Below are positions 14,248 through 26,035 of a stretch of 32,688 nucleotides of DNA, piece by piece (position 1 is the stretch's first letter; each line of letters opens with the position of its first letter). The stretch comes from Bacteroidota bacterium. Lineage in GTDB: Bacteria > Bacteroidota > Bacteroidia > Bacteroidales > GCA-2748055. A program made the position numbers and the translations under genes. Below the pieces are notes generated by a model. It was given only the letters and a program-made list of their open reading frames with translations. It had not been told where the DNA came from and did no database searches. The stretch spans positions 1 through 32,688 of the forward strand of contig QMPQ01000013.1 of NCBI GenBank assembly GCA_003648635.1, read 5' to 3'.

Positions 14248-14649
14248 ATGCGTGAATGTTTACATCGGGAAGTGGAATTCAGGACCAGCCGATCGTCCGG
14301 ACCGGGCGGTCAGCATGTGAATAAAACGGAATCGCGGGTGGAGCTATTGTGGTCTCCACAGGAATCAAATTGCCTGACTGAAGAACAAAAAATGCTGGTA
14401 GCGAGCCGGCTAGGAAGTCGTATCACAGATGAGGGAGTATTAATCCTGGCATCAGAAAAGTACAGGTCTCAACATAGGAATAAGGCAGATGTTACTGAAC
14501 GCTTTTTCGACCTGGTAACAAGCAGCCTGGTGCCAGTTAAGAAGCGCAGGCCGACCAGGCCCACCCGTTCAAGTGTTGAGAAGCGGATCCGATCCAAGAA
14601 GATCCGGGGAGATATCAAAAGGTCACGGAGAAAGGGCCCTGAAGAGTAA
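14248..14649 (+). CDS. arfB: ArfB-like peptidyl-tRNA hydrolase (ribosome rescue)
   Basis: A 133-residue class I release-factor-like protein. The catalytic motif is GPGGQHVNK at about residues 18-26, where GGQ hydrolyses the ester bond of peptidyl-tRNA. It lacks the codon-recognition domain of RF1/RF2 and has a basic C-terminal tail (KKRRPTRPTRSS onward), which in ArfB/YaeJ enters the empty mRNA channel of stalled ribosomes. Size and layout fit ArfB well. It is a single-gene unit, followed by the hairpin that terminates the opposite-strand operon. Confidence 0.92.
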   Translation: MRECLHREVEFRTSRSSGPGGQHVNKTESRVELLWSPQESNCLTEEQKMLVASRLGSRITDEGVLILASEKYRSQHRNKADVTERFFDLVTSSLVPVKKRRPTRPTRSSVEKRIRSKKIRGDIKRSRRKGPEE

Positions 14650-14750: not shown

Positions 14751-16376
14751 CTATTCTGCGGGAACCAGATCTTTGTTCTTGTTCTTTACCGGTTTGAAAA
14801 TTCCGATCAGCCCTTCGAGTCCTACGGTCATCACAATGTTGATGAAGAAGAGCAGGAATGCGATAAGTAACAGGGCTCCACAAACCAGGGCCAGGATCAT
14901 GTATAGGTCATACTCCCCATTAAAGTAGAGGGTTCTTCTGAGCATGCCTTTCAGTCCGGCCATACCCATGAACGCTCCCATACCAATACCGCCAAACAGA
15001 TGGAGCCAGAAATGAAGATTGGCCAGTTTCTGACTGTACAGTTTAGCCCCATTGGTCAGAATTGGTAGCAGGAGATAGATTGCCGCGTAAAGGGTCATGG
15101 TTAAACCTACCAGTATCGCCACATGCACGTGAGGTCCTATAATCCACTGGGTGTTATGAAGGACACGGTTCAATCCAACATCTGCCTGCATAATACCGGC
15201 AGGGACAGCCAGTGCAAATCCAAGAAGTCCGCCCAGCAGGAATTTCAACTCATTGGTCATCTTTAATGGTCTGGCGGCCCATAGGGTAGCCAGGGTGATA
15301 AAGAAGGCCAGTCCCTGTGTAATCAGTTCAAAAGCCGTCACCATCTCACCTGACACTACTTTTAGTATAGCAGGTTGAGCCTGGTCAGCCAAGAGGTGGT
15401 GCGACCAGACGGTCCAGGATACAACCAGTTCCAGAAGCAGTGCAGCACGAGCTATGTTCTGCATAAATAGCTTCTTTCCTGTGATCATCGTAGCCAGGAG
15501 GTACCAGGTACCGGCCACAAAGATCAGGACCAGTCCGTCGGCAATCAGGTCGAGTCCCCACCAGAACCAATTCTTATAAAGAAGAGCATCTACAGCCGTA
15601 TCCTTCAGGTCATATCCAAGGATGGCTGCAACCATGTAGGTCAGGATCAATAAGCCGGTAAAGAGGATAATCCCTGCATTCAGAGCCATGTCCACTGTTC
15701 CCCGGGCAATGGCAGCCACAGGTAGGGATACCAGGTGCTCTTTCCGTTTCTCCTTTTTCCGAAGTAGATTTCCAAACCCTACAGTTCCTATTGCCGAACC
15801 GAGCAGTTTAGCACCGGGTTGTTTTTCCCAACCTTCGGGAGTATAAGCTATAGTTTTGAAGATGTTAATCACGAAGAAAATTGAACCCACCATCACCAGG
15901 GCAATGCCCAGTATAAAAAAGGCACCTCCCACCGGATTGAACTGGGTGAAGTCAGCGGGCAATGGCCAGTACAAGGTGTACAGAGGGGCGTAATGAGAAA
16001 TAAATCCCGCCAGCCAGAAGATAAATGTACCACCTGCGATCAGGAAAAAATTCCAGTGCGCCAGTTTCATACTGTAAAGTGGTTTTTTCATCAGGTAGGG
16101 AACCAGAAACAGAAAAGCTCCCATGACGATAGCGTAAGTGGAACCAAAGATTCCCACCAGTGGATGTGCTGTCAGGATGGCGAAGAACTGCTCCTGGGAA
16201 ATCATGTCGATCTGTTCAACCTCCACAATCCGCATGATCATTCCTTCGACCACAACAAAAAGATAATAAACCAGGCCTACGACCACAAAGCGCAGTGTAA
16301 GCTTCTGCATAGCGGTGAGGGATTCTGCTTTGAACAATCCCTGTTCACCTTTCATCAGTGTATTTACAAATGACAT
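14751..16376 (-). CDS. Divergent heme-copper oxidoreductase subunit I, probable nitric oxide reductase
   Basis: A 541-residue protein with 12 or 13 membrane helices and the heme-copper oxidase subunit I fold. Low-spin heme ligands are His71 (LTAHPLVG) and His418, the high-spin heme ligand is His416 (GPHVHVA), and two copper/iron-site ligands are His326-His327 (VWSHHLL). Helix VI reads WFWWGLDLIADG. It lacks the HPEVY of A-type oxidases; it lines up with NorB HLWVEG as Asp276 for the His and Asp280 for the Glu. His-to-Asp at the metal-B site is seen directly. No active-site Tyr is evident in helix VI or helix VII, which argues against oxygen reduction. Alternative NO reductase families with unusual active sites (eNOR, sNOR, gNOR, nNOR) have been described, and this may belong to one of them. 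Subunit II lies 12 bases upstream, and a terminator follows. Database names such as cbb3 oxidase would be misleading. Confidence 0.88.
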   Translation of the reverse strand: MSFVNTLMKGEQGLFKAESLTAMQKLTLRFVVVGLVYYLFVVVEGMIMRIVEVEQIDMISQEQFFAILTAHPLVGIFGSTYAIVMGAFLFLVPYLMKKPLYSMKLAHWNFFLIAGGTFIFWLAGFISHYAPLYTLYWPLPADFTQFNPVGGAFFILGIALVMVGSIFFVINIFKTIAYTPEGWEKQPGAKLLGSAIGTVGFGNLLRKKEKRKEHLVSLPVAAIARGTVDMALNAGIILFTGLLILTYMVAAILGYDLKDTAVDALLYKNWFWWGLDLIADGLVLIFVAGTWYLLATMITGKKLFMQNIARAALLLELVVSWTVWSHHLLADQAQPAILKVVSGEMVTAFELITQGLAFFITLATLWAARPLKMTNELKFLLGGLLGFALAVPAGIMQADVGLNRVLHNTQWIIGPHVHVAILVGLTMTLYAAIYLLLPILTNGAKLYSQKLANLHFWLHLFGGIGMGAFMGMAGLKGMLRRTLYFNGEYDLYMILALVCGALLLIAFLLFFINIVMTVGLEGLIGIFKPVKNKNKDLVPAE

Positions 16377-16388
16377 ATCAATAATCTT

Positions 16389-16937
16389 TTAAGGTTCGAC
16401 AACTTCCACTGCATTCTCTTCAATCATGGCAATTCCTTTGGGACCGGAATACTCGGTAGACCGGATGGTGTAGAGACCCGGTTTAAGGAATTTCCATAAG
16501 ATATCGTTGCGGTGGCCCGGGACCACCTGCATCTGGAATAACATGGTGTTATCCTCACGGAAGAGTCCGAACCCGTAAGTCAGGTCTTTGGATGTCACAT
16601 CAAATTCGACAATCTGACCCACTTCGATTACCATCTTTTCTTCGGGAAGAATGAATTCATGGTTAGCCACATCAATGGCAAAGGATTGATCAGGAGTGAT
16701 CTCATGACGTTTCAGGTCCATTTCGGACCAGGGGATCGTGTTGTAGGTAATGATGTGCAGGGAGACTCCCAGCACAGTGAGGAACCCGACAAATGTGTAA
16801 AAAAGAGCGGGATTCACTTTACTTTTTCCAGGTCTGGTGATGCGAAGTGCAAACCAGGCCATCACCAGCATAATGACTACTGTGTAACAGGTGTAAGCAA
16901 TTGTTTGTCCTTTCAGGACCAGGGCAGAATCTACCAT
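16389..16937 (-). CDS. Cytochrome-oxidase-subunit-II-like cupredoxin lacking the CuA site
   Basis: A 182-residue partner of the subunit I gene. Two membrane helices (about 12-33 and 44-65) precede a periplasmic cupredoxin domain (about 85-180) with the COX2 features VPGHRNDI and PGLYTIRSTEYSG. In CuA-containing subunits the last stretch is C-x-E-x-C-G with a later His and Met. Here both Cys are Ser (Ser160, Ser164), the upstream His is Tyr121 (LTYGF), and the later His is missing, while Met171 remains. The site therefore cannot bind CuA, so electrons must reach subunit I by another route. The gene lies between the Rrf2-type regulator (70 bases upstream) and subunit I. Confidence 0.87.
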   Translation of the reverse strand: MVDSALVLKGQTIAYTCYTVVIMLVMAWFALRITRPGKSKVNPALFYTFVGFLTVLGVSLHIITYNTIPWSEMDLKRHEITPDQSFAIDVANHEFILPEEKMVIEVGQIVEFDVTSKDLTYGFGLFREDNTMLFQMQVVPGHRNDILWKFLKPGLYTIRSTEYSGPKGIAMIEENAVEVVEP

Positions 16938-16973: not shown

Positions 16974-17011
16974 GCTATACGAAGATAGCATATTATCAGA
17001 AAAAAAATCAA
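16974..17011 (-). promoter_or_regulatory. Candidate promoter with overlapping palindrome for the NOR-like operon
   Basis: On the minus strand a TTG (17009-17011) lies 21 bases before TATCTTCG (16987-16980), a one-mismatch TAnnTTTG element. The inverted repeat GCTAT-n6-ATAGC (16974-16989) covers the -7 element and likely start point. Transcription would begin about 35-40 bases before the subunit II ATG. An Rrf2-type repressor encoded just upstream would be the obvious ligand; the binding is inference. Confidence 0.4.
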
Positions 17012-17418
17012 TGAGATTTGTCAGCTTTTAATAGCTGGTCTAATGTTGTGTTATTTAGAATTTTAAGAATGCTATTCCGGGTTTCATCCCAAACTTCATG
17101 CATGGCACAAGTATGGTCGAAAGGGCATTGTTTAAATCCCATAATGCATGTGTCCAATACATTTAAACCTTCTACTGAATCAATAATCTCGGCCAGGACA
17201 ATTTGGTCGGCAGGCTTGTTCAACCGAAAGCCACCATTGCGCCCCTGGGTGCTAAATATGAATCCGCTTTTTGAAAGGCTGGTAAGCAACTGTCGTAAAT
17301 AAGGCCAGGGTATCTCCAGTATTTCATTTAGCTTTTTGGCAGAGTAAAGCTCTCCTTCAATCTTAGCCATAAAGCTGAGGACCGAAATAGCGTAAGATGT
17401 GGTTTTACTGAAATTCAT
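17008..17418 (-). CDS. Rrf2-family regulator with three Cys (NsrR/IscR type)
   Basis: A 136-residue winged-helix regulator. The N-terminal HTH (about 1-65) includes PYLRQLLTSLSKSGFI and the wing RNGGFRLNKP. Three Cys follow at 91, 98 and 104 (Cys-x6-Cys-x5-Cys), the position at which NsrR and IscR hold a [2Fe-2S] or [4Fe-4S] cluster. NsrR senses nitric oxide through that cluster and derepresses NO-detoxifying genes. The next genes in the same direction are the heme-copper enzyme subunits, so an NO-responsive local regulator is a good inference. An IscR-like or other redox-sensing role is possible; no Fe-S assembly genes are present. Confidence 0.88.
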   Translation of the reverse strand: MNFSKTTSYAISVLSFMAKIEGELYSAKKLNEILEIPWPYLRQLLTSLSKSGFIFSTQGRNGGFRLNKPADQIVLAEIIDSVEGLNVLDTCIMGFKQCPFDHTCAMHEVWDETRNSILKILNNTTLDQLLKADKSH

Positions 17419-23646: not shown

Positions 23647-25170
23647 TTATTCATTAACAGAAGGTTTATTATATTCACAGACTACCCTGAAGCCCACATG
23701 GAAACAGTCGGAATACCACCAGACGCTTTTAGGAATTTGAGGATCAGTCTTCATCCAGGATTCTGATTTAGTGGAGTCCCTGAAAGCACACCGAACCTGA
23801 TCTGCTTCATCCTTATAGGAACCACCCCTGATCACATGTTCTTCACCGCTTGCAGGTCCGGTAGGATTGGATAGGATACCATCCGGATACTGGGAGAAGG
23901 CATCAGCCGCATACCAGTCAGCGCAGAACTCAGCCACATTTCCCAGCATATTGACCAGTCCAAATGGATTTTCAAATATCTCCTCGGGATGAGCAGATCT
24001 GGCCATACTATTTTCATCATAGTTGATAAAGCTATTAATCCCGCTTGTATCAATACCGAAAAGTTTGTTCCTAATCCCTCTCTTCACATATCGCTTTGGA
24101 TCGCCCTCAAAAAAATAGGGTGTGGAGGACCCTCCGCGTGCAGCATACTCCCATTCGGCTTCTGTTGGAAGCCTGTAAGTTTTTCCTGTGATTTCAGATA
24201 ACCACTGACAATAGACTTCAGCTGCTTGATGAGTCATTGACATGGCAGGCATTTTCCCTTTCCCCCACCCCTGGTCTGGGGCTCCATAAGGAGGAGTGGG
24301 CCCCGATATGGCATCAACATCTCCCTTATCTACATTGAGGTAGGTATCTGTGGTTTTCCCCTGTGCACCAGTCTGCTTGAAGAAGGCCAGGTACTCATTC
24401 CAACTTACCTCGATTTTTGCCATAAAGAAGGGATCGACTTTTACCTCCCGTACCGGTCCTTCGTCAGCATTTCGGAAGGGTTCATTTTCAGGACTCCCCA
24501 TCTGGAATGAGCCTCCGGGAATAGCCACCATTTCAAAACTGATGGCCGAACCCACAATATTTTCTGTAAAATCATTGAAGCCATTCATCCCTCCCGGTTC
24601 TGTGTAAATTTCGGTTTCAACCGTTTCAGTTATACCAAAACTGGTATTCTTTGCATGCAGCCTGTCCGGATCATAGTGCCCTACGGTAATGTGACAATTG
24701 ATGCAATGCAGTTCACTAGCCTGCTGTTCATAGTAGAGATGTGCCTCACGCCCCTCTTCGGTTAATCCCAGAGGGTAATTGTTCTGGTGACAATGAATAC
24801 AGGAGATTTCAAAGGCATGACCCTTGGCATAATCAATCTGTGATTTCTCTTCCCAGTTGAAGCTGGCAGAGTCTTTAAAGGTATTGGACCAAAGATCGCG
24901 AAGACCGGTCTTTGCCTTCTCTACCAGGTACCCTTCGCCATGTGGCGGAAGATGACAATCCACACAATGCACCTGTATACCCCGGGGATTGTCATAGTGG
25001 GTGGAGCGTTTCCAGCTTTGGGTCGAATGGGGATGAACATGGCATGAAGCACAATACTCATCGGTCGATGTTTTTACTACAGCTTTGTTTCCCAGGAAGA
25101 TGATAAGGGAGGCAATAAATATTCCTGACAGGAAAATTAATCTGCCGGCTCTTTTTCTCTTTAGTCTCAT
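23647..25170 (-). CDS. Tetraheme NapC/NrfH-like cytochrome fused to an SUMF1 domain
   Basis: A 507-residue fusion from the ATG at 25170; an in-frame TTG at 25212 would only add 14 residues in front of a good membrane anchor. Residues 11-27 are a single membrane helix. Four CxxCH heme motifs follow at 40-44, 69-73, 124-128 and 156-160, the number and spacing of the NapC/NrfH quinol-dehydrogenase family. A formylglycine-generating-enzyme/SUMF1 fold then covers about 205-500, with MVAIPGGSFQMGSP, RLPTEAEWEYAARGG, GNVAEFCADW and HVIRGGSYKDEADQVRC. The Cys pair of true aerobic FGEs (after GGSY) is absent: Asp and Gln stand at those positions, so sulfatase activation is unlikely. The protein should sit on the periplasmic face and draw electrons from menaquinol. 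Its substrate is unknown. TauE/SafE and Gfo/Idh genes flank it on the same strand. Confidence 0.9.
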   Translation of the reverse strand: MRLKRKRAGRLIFLSGIFIASLIIFLGNKAVVKTSTDEYCASCHVHPHSTQSWKRSTHYDNPRGIQVHCVDCHLPPHGEGYLVEKAKTGLRDLWSNTFKDSASFNWEEKSQIDYAKGHAFEISCIHCHQNNYPLGLTEEGREAHLYYEQQASELHCINCHITVGHYDPDRLHAKNTSFGITETVETEIYTEPGGMNGFNDFTENIVGSAISFEMVAIPGGSFQMGSPENEPFRNADEGPVREVKVDPFFMAKIEVSWNEYLAFFKQTGAQGKTTDTYLNVDKGDVDAISGPTPPYGAPDQGWGKGKMPAMSMTHQAAEVYCQWLSEITGKTYRLPTEAEWEYAARGGSSTPYFFEGDPKRYVKRGIRNKLFGIDTSGINSFINYDENSMARSAHPEEIFENPFGLVNMLGNVAEFCADWYAADAFSQYPDGILSNPTGPASGEEHVIRGGSYKDEADQVRCAFRDSTKSESWMKTDPQIPKSVWWYSDCFHVGFRVVCEYNKPSVNE

Positions 25171-25270
25171 AATCAGTGAGGTAAAGAAAGTGATTTTTGT
25201 CCTCAGATTCAAGAAAGATGTACTTGGAACACTTATTTAAATAGATTCTATGAACTGAGCTAAAAAGTGC

Positions 25271-26035
25271 TTAAAACAGGAGCAGCGCAGAAAGCAGGGT
25301 GGTGACAATCACCAGGATTCGATAGAACTTCTCTGGCAGAAGACGAACCAGCCAAATTCCAAGAAAAGCTCCTGCTGCTATGGCAGGAATTACAAGCACA
25401 TCCAATAAAAATGAATTCAAGGTGATGGTTTTCCATGACCAGATATGCAAAGGAACTTTAGACAGGTTTACAATAAAGAAGAACCAGGCTCCCGTTCCGA
25501 TGTAAATGTTCTTTGGCAAGCGCATGGATAAGAGATAAAGTGCCATCACCGGTCCGGCGGCATTCCCGATCATGGTTGAAAAACCACCAAGAAGCCCGAG
25601 TCCCCCTGCAAACCATCTTGACTTGGGAATTTTGATTTTATCGGCTCTGATATCTCGCCATATCAGGATGGCAATTCCGCCAATTATCAGCGCTGCAAGG
25701 AGCCTGCTAAAAGTCTGATCTGAAATTGATTTTCCTACCAGTGTTGCCAGGATAATGCCTGCAAAGGCCCAGGGGAGCAGGCGAAGAATATGTTTCCATT
25801 GTGCGTGTCGGTTGTACCAGGTGACTGCAAATATATCTGCAAAAATCAGAATGGGAAGCAGAAGTCCCACCGAGGGCCGCCCCCCGAAAGCATTGGCGAG
25901 CAGGGGCACCACCATCAGTCCTATCCCCGAAATGCCAGTCTTTGACATACCAATAAGCAGGCCACTGATACCCAGGAGTACCCATTGGAGATTGCTCAGG
26001 TCATATGATGAAATTAGGTCGGCCAGGGACTGCAA
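25271..26035 (-). CDS. TauE/SafE family permease (sulfite exporter type)
   Basis: A 254-residue protein with about eight hydrophobic helices, two homologous halves, and the family sequence GISGLLIGMSKTGISGIG near the start plus GGFSTMIGNAAGPVMALYLL in the middle. TauE/SafE proteins export sulfite, sulfoacetate or related anions. The first usable start is a TTG at 26035: an in-frame stop lies two codons before it, and the next ATG is inside the first helix. The start lies 7 bases past the stop of the acyltransferase gene, so coupling is likely. The transported anion is unknown; a link with the heme protein downstream or sulfated glycans is conjecture. Confidence 0.9.
   Translation of the reverse strand: MQSLADLISSYDLSNLQWVLLGISGLLIGMSKTGISGIGLMVVPLLANAFGGRPSVGLLLPILIFADIFAVTWYNRHAQWKHILRLLPWAFAGIILATLVGKSISDQTFSRLLAALIIGGIAILIWRDIRADKIKIPKSRWFAGGLGLLGGFSTMIGNAAGPVMALYLLSMRLPKNIYIGTGAWFFFIVNLSKVPLHIWSWKTITLNSFLLDVLVIPAIAAGAFLGIWLVRLLPEKFYRILVIVTTLLSALLLF

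Follow-up and report, generated by a model that had tools for sequence, protein, structure and literature searches.

A probable two-subunit heme-copper nitric oxide reductase, likely of the gNOR type, in a Bacteroidota genome

The gNOR enzymes are reportedly treated in Hemp and Gennis 2008 and in Murali et al. 2024. They may carry an Asp in place of the helix VI metal-ligand His; the passages of the gNOR literature consulted here do not describe such a replacement. In the published excerpts that we draw on, gNOR has D as its active-site residue, no proton channel (0 in Table A4) and a cupredoxin subunit II, with members in Sulfurimonas, Sulfurovum and Persephonella (PMC8756737). It is given as quinone-oxidizing and non-electrogenic (norGH) in one excerpt (PMC8906906); contrary to both of these, another lists it among the energy-conserving types (PMC6349771). 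The sNOR, gNOR and nNOR families are described, in the part of the source used, as proposed and as related to B-type enzymes (PMC11388526). In the better-known NO reductases, glutamates near the active site matter, as far as the excerpts go: in cNOR both activity and proton uptake depend critically on Glu211 and Glu280 (PMC3431322), Glu559 of AxqNOR is the equivalent of cNOR Glu280, and Glu490 mutants of a qNOR lose >90% of activity (PMC6713497).

The window, by which we mean the whole 32,688-nucleotide stretch analysed, is contig C13 of a Bacteroidota genome of 4.1 Mb (416 contigs, 97% complete). It carries a presumed operon of three genes:

14751..16376, minus strand: subunit I, heme-copper superfamily, catalytic, 541 aa, ATG start (PF00115 COX1, E 4e-55)
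16389..16937, minus strand: subunit II, 182 aa, two helices and a cupredoxin domain (from a model and a profile alignment)
17008..17418, minus strand: Rrf2-family regulator, 136 aa, three Cys in a C-x6-C-x5-C pattern, first gene of the presumed operon

The subunit II gene lies 12 bases upstream of subunit I and the Rrf2 gene further upstream, all three on the same strand. Many similar copies of this operon exist. Among the best 80 of 323 relatives, subunit II adjoins subunit I in 79/80 loci, and the 80th is cut 40 bases upstream. The only PF00115 matches in the host genome are the window gene and one other subunit I, which is of the A type by motif.

The residues expected at the hemes and the metal site of subunit I are located as follows:

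16164..16166, minus strand: His71, low-spin heme ligand by homology (alignments)
15549..15551, minus strand: Asp276 codon, at the position of the helix VI CuB/FeB His ligand (ba3 alignment; invariant in 97/97)
15537..15539, minus strand: Asp280 codon, at the position of the oxidase Tyr and of NorB Glu211 (alignments; invariant in 97/97)
15396..15401, minus strand: His326-His327 codons, the rest of the metal site, a His pair (alignments; invariant in 97/97)
15327..15338, minus strand: Thr347-x-x-Glu350 in helix VIII, at the position of cNOR Ser277-x-x-Glu280 (alignment)
15123..15131, minus strand: His416-Val-His418, helix X heme ligands by homology (alignments)

An earlier sequence-only reading of this DNA had named five His (71, 326, 327, 416, 418) together with Asp276 and Asp280, and every one of these is present. 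H71, D276, D280, S320, H326, H327, T347, E350, H416 and H418 are invariant in 97/97 aligned sequences, i.e., the window protein, 80 close relatives (the best 80 of 323, one of which, L126, is cut at its C-terminal end) and 16 sequences of a Chloroflexota type, from which fragments (L174 and two further pieces) were left out. With the catalytic columns invariant, a decayed gene or a sequencing error is ruled out. The Chloroflexota type is ~43% identical to the window protein, so the active-site pattern has persisted through a long period of divergence.

Aligned with the Thermus ba3 oxidase, helix VI has no gaps, and the CuB His is matched by Asp276 and the cross-linked Tyr by Asp280; two other alignments put a one-residue gap in helix VI, and the ungapped ba3 pairing was adopted. 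The helix VI stretch reads WW-GL-D-LIA-DG in the family and WW-VV-H-LWV-EG in qNOR. One extra residue precedes His416 relative to the aligned A, B and C rows. The lack of an active-site Tyr that had been claimed holds at both known positions, which are occupied by Asp280 in helix VI and by Ser320 in helix VII, the cbb3 Tyr position (Ser in 97/97; Tyr in 5/5 C-type rows). The three Tyr positions of the ba3 K-channel read D280, V/T287 and W291 in the family. In ba3 the helix VI His stands 49 residues from the HH pair. From D276 to H326 the distance is 50, and it is 51 in AxqNOR by the numbering of PMC6713497; the NorB-like spacing seen earlier is not specific to NorB. A further expectation, that automatic annotation would return a cbb3 oxidase, is not clearly borne out. 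The 541-aa protein passed none of the NCBIfam subunit I models; it came closest to CtaD_CoxA, with 105.7 bits against a cut-off of 670.75, and to ccoN, with 56.3 bits against 583.15. Only COX1 passes its cut-off in subunit I, and the N-terminal cytochrome c-like domain of qNOR (PF22085) is absent.

By alignment, Glu350 of helix VIII is a further NorB-type acid, one that the sequence-only reading had passed over and that is common only to qNOR within the tree set. Column 350 of the 46-row tree alignment holds Glu in 14/14 family rows and 4/4 qNOR rows, and elsewhere Val (10/10 B-type), Ala (6/6 Gln-type), Ile or Val (6/6 A), Leu (5/5 C) or Ser (1/1 Asn-type). Row L151, a qNOR, has this Glu 22 residues past the first His of HH, the distance that separates Glu559 from His537 in AxqNOR. 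The assignment of Glu350 to Glu280 is alignment-dependent, as the family has two more residues in the loop that follows HH. The position of the third NorB glutamate (Glu215) is Leu284.

The tree was built from 14 family, 6 A, 10 B, 5 C, 4 qNOR, 6 Gln-type and 1 Asn-type rows; the qNOR rows are partial, with their first 200 residues removed and their loci ending before the gene end. The family forms one clade (support 100/99) apart from the A, B, C, qNOR, Gln-type and Asn-type rows, and is thus placed outside the sampled oxygen reductases. Its branching among A, B and C has supports of 45 to 48 with a long-branch warning, and it is not joined to the B-type rows. The Gln-type rows form another clade, sister to the B-type oxidases. 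They comprise six subunit I sequences (L199-L204) in which the Tyr position is a Gln (GH[PG][AS]QQ) and are eNOR-like, called so from the residue in the excerpted Table A4 of PMC8756737. The Asn-type row (L034:1480-2997, minus strand, genome G228) carries an Asn where helix VI would have its Tyr (GHTLVN) and sits on a very long branch (3.07); it may be sNOR/bNOR-like or a further divergent type. The structure model of the window subunit I (pLDDT 79.7, pTM 0.85) resembles oxidase subunits I, with TM-scores of ~0.7 to 0.8 by query length and a best structure row of Z 34.3, rmsd 3.1 and 468 aligned. It is least certain near the active site, which is adjoined by all the parts of low confidence: helix VI, where blocks score 54 to 65, 329-332 and 400-414.

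Subunit II is modelled (pLDDT 89.5) as two long helices and a cupredoxin domain, and the structures that it matches best are oxidase CuA subunits or CuA domains; the structure alignments took in 75/81 and 64/80 of the available rows. In the profile alignment the CuA ligands His, Cys, Cys and His read Tyr121, Ser160, Ser164 and Gly168, so that of the set Met171 alone remains. All 64 of 64 aligned sequences have these four replacements and 63 have Met171. In the Chloroflexota type, the same STEYSG stretch is found in subunit II at 15/16 loci; the remaining one, L161, is truncated where its contig begins. Read from these positions, CuA has been lost from subunit II, as it has in relatives that are fed by quinol. 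As its ligands are gone, the electrons probably come from quinol and not from cytochrome c.

The Rrf2 gene was found in 49/80 loci, which is a minimum as some contigs end early. For the 31 loci without a match, a scan of 22 upstream genes gave two of the CRP/FNR type. The three Cys are in place in 51/51 Rrf2 copies, presumably as in Fe-S Rrf2 regulators, e.g., NsrR and IscR. The Rrf2 protein of the window passes the superfamily model only, scoring 64.4 bits against the NsrR model cut-off of 182. The inverted repeat ATACCT-N2-AGGTAT stands upstream of the Rrf2-led operon in L083, L084, L087, L093 and L122. A count of 6-mer inverted repeats found it in 5/79 upstream regions; in 20 mononucleotide shuffles the highest count was 3. 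The palindrome is a possible regulator site.

Clustering of neighbour genes across loci found no widely kept neighbours besides subunit II and Rrf2, and no conserved NO-metabolism neighbour was found apart from the regulator. Individual flanks vary. In the window, a small RF-1 domain protein, ArfB-like by size, is encoded directly downstream of the operon on the opposite strand (14248-14649, plus strand). YeeE-type transporter-like and rhodanese-like genes, recognized by eye, lie downstream of the operon in the flanks of L078, L079, L085 and L096 (4 to 6 loci per cluster). In L147, of the Chloroflexota type, a gene resembling type II NADH dehydrogenase by eye is found beside subunit II. Elsewhere in the window, a single ORF (23647-25212, minus strand) has the odd pairing of an N-terminal NapC/NirT cytochrome c region (residues 24-183) and a sulfatase-modifying-factor domain (residues 227-482), and it adjoins a TauE/SafE exporter gene (25271-26035).

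The family is patchily distributed even within the window's genus, where 8/18 genomes have it; it is in 12/61 near relatives overall and in 10/296 genomes of the phylum, the ten including the window genome, G216, where the gene is divided between two contigs, and G323, which has a fragment of 92 aa. In the phylum of a MAG titled Anaerolineae it was found in 2/201 genomes (G356 with the Bacteroidota type and G552 with the other type), and in the class of G552 the Chloroflexota type is present at >=66% in 17/150 genomes, one by fragments only. The phylum of a MAG titled Acidobacteriota has the family in 2/199. Two scans found no relatives on viral contigs; there were none in phages, and plasmid relatives were limited to Nostoc. 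No Sulfurimonas, Sulfurovum or Persephonella names occur among the best 80 of the 323 relatives.

NrfA was detected in 6/10 family genomes vs. 46/296 (Fisher p 0.001), qNOR in 2/10 vs. 27/296 (p 0.23), and NosZ, which is not enriched, in 4/10 vs. 98/296 (p 0.73), all with lineage uncontrolled. The NosZ counts leave a link to complete denitrification unsupported. In the window genome neither qNOR nor NrfA gave a match at the thresholds used, and NosZ gave only a 21.8-bit partial match, far below the cut-off; the genome thus does not look like that of a denitrifier at these thresholds. In G232, G302, G243, G279, G315, G331, G115 and G288, several NrfA-family matches cross in-frame stop codons; these matches are perhaps two adjacent ORFs or cases of recoding.

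In the mechanism that we propose, His71 and His418 would hold the low-spin heme and His416 the high-spin heme, and a non-heme metal would be held by His326, His327 and Asp276. As such a 2-His-1-carboxylate set would favour iron over copper, the metal is probably iron. Asp280 and Glu350 would stand in for two glutamates with which NorB serves its site, and at neither known position is there a Tyr that O2 reduction could use. Subunit II would have the cupredoxin fold without CuA, with quinol as the probable donor. The net reaction, on the presumed substrate, would be 2 NO + 2 e- + 2 H+ -> N2O + H2O. It would most likely be non-electrogenic and perhaps serve mainly in detoxification, under the putative control of the three-Cys Rrf2 regulator, which may sense NO.

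We put at roughly 0.68 the probability that the operon encodes a two-subunit membrane NO reductase of the heme-copper superfamily that works in this way and is most likely gNOR. The general reading as an unconventional NO reductase, advanced earlier, gains from the missing Tyr, the acid at the NorB position, Glu350 and the clade outside the oxygen reductases. Its suggested membership of an alternative NOR family finds its best fit in gNOR, an assignment that is likely on published descriptors as excerpted. The Asp listed for gNOR at the Tyr/Glu position (PMC8756737 Table A4) is D280 in 97/97, and the second subunit has the cupredoxin fold given in the same source. The absence of CuA ligands in 64/64 fits the quinone oxidation ascribed to gNOR (PMC8906906), the donor here being the probable one. 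The loss of the ba3 K-channel Tyr positions would agree with the lack of a proton channel as far as the K-channel goes; other pathways may exist. On the kinship with B-type enzymes (PMC11388526) the tree speaks neither for nor against: the family is not joined to the B-type rows and the backbone supports are 45 to 48. This separation from every sampled group, together with a likeness to gNOR drawn in excerpted sources by residue D, quinone donor, absent proton channel and cupredoxin subunit and not by sequence, would suit an NO reductase with the same mechanism from another family, either nNOR or one without a name. We regard this as unlikely, as the gNOR descriptors that can be checked agree with or fit the family. 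It is also doubtful, to a similar degree, that the family lies outside the named ones and came independently to a NorB-like carboxylate-rich iron site and helix VIII Glu, with quinol as donor and a copper-free cupredoxin subunit alongside.

An oxygen reductase with an altered site, drawing its fourth electron from another residue, would account for the fold and the sequence being nearest to oxidases among solved structures. We reject it on the Tyr positions (no Tyr at either in 97/97), the missing metal-ligand His and the lost CuA, to which the lost ba3 K-channel Tyr positions and the separate A-type subunit I (by motif) in the same genome can be added; it is highly improbable. A different NO or N-oxide reaction in the same scaffold, e.g., NO dismutation, or a role in sensing or scavenging NO, would sit well with a small self-contained operon led by a three-Cys Rrf2 and with a genome where NosZ, NrfA and qNOR are missing at the thresholds used. 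Against this, the NorB-type acids point to reduction with protons, and the heme ligands and the CuA-less subunit II are kept. To our knowledge, the known NO dismutases are qNOR-like. We consider this reading very improbable as well.

If the gNOR-type NO reductase reading is true, many uncultured Bacteroidota and Chloroflexota would turn NO into N2O and be missed by NorB-based surveys; 8/10 of the family-bearing Bacteroidota genomes have no qNOR match. The helix VIII Glu, shared with qNOR by a clade otherwise remote from it, would allow convergence on a carboxylate-rich site for NO reduction to be put to the test, and the family raises the question of iron binding by a 2-His-1-Asp site.

A B-type (ba3) oxidase is the nearest solved sequence to the family (phmmer E 8e-10), and the two have the fold and a cupredoxin subunit II in common, but ba3 has the CuB His, the cross-linked Tyr, the K-channel Tyr and CuA, and the family is without all four. 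The cbb3 (C-type) oxidases have the helix VII Tyr and helix VI His where the family has S320 and D276. The Gln-type (eNOR-like, Chloroflexota set) enzymes also have an altered residue at the Tyr position; they keep the His, have Gln at the Tyr position and Ala for Glu350, and are sister to the B-type, whereas the family has D280. The sNOR / bNOR (CuANOR) enzymes are listed with Asn at this position (excerpted Table A4 of PMC8756737), again unlike D280. With cNOR/qNOR (NorB, NorZ) the family has in common an acid four residues past the helix VI ligand followed by Gly, the helix VIII (S/T)xxE and the lack of an active-site Tyr. It differs in its ~14% identity to the qNOR rows, its separate clade, the lack of a cytochrome c-like domain and the missing third Glu, and where the FeB of cNOR/qNOR has three His and a Glu, the family has Asp276 (for His) and Asp280 (for Glu). 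With gNOR it shares the active-site Asp and the cupredoxin subunit II; its CuA loss would fit the quinol donor given for gNOR, and its lost K-channel Tyr positions would fit the absent proton channel. The difference lies in the hosts: the named gNOR members are Sulfurimonas, Sulfurovum, Persephonella and Methylomirabilis, and the family here is of a Bacteroidota type with a Chloroflexota sister group.
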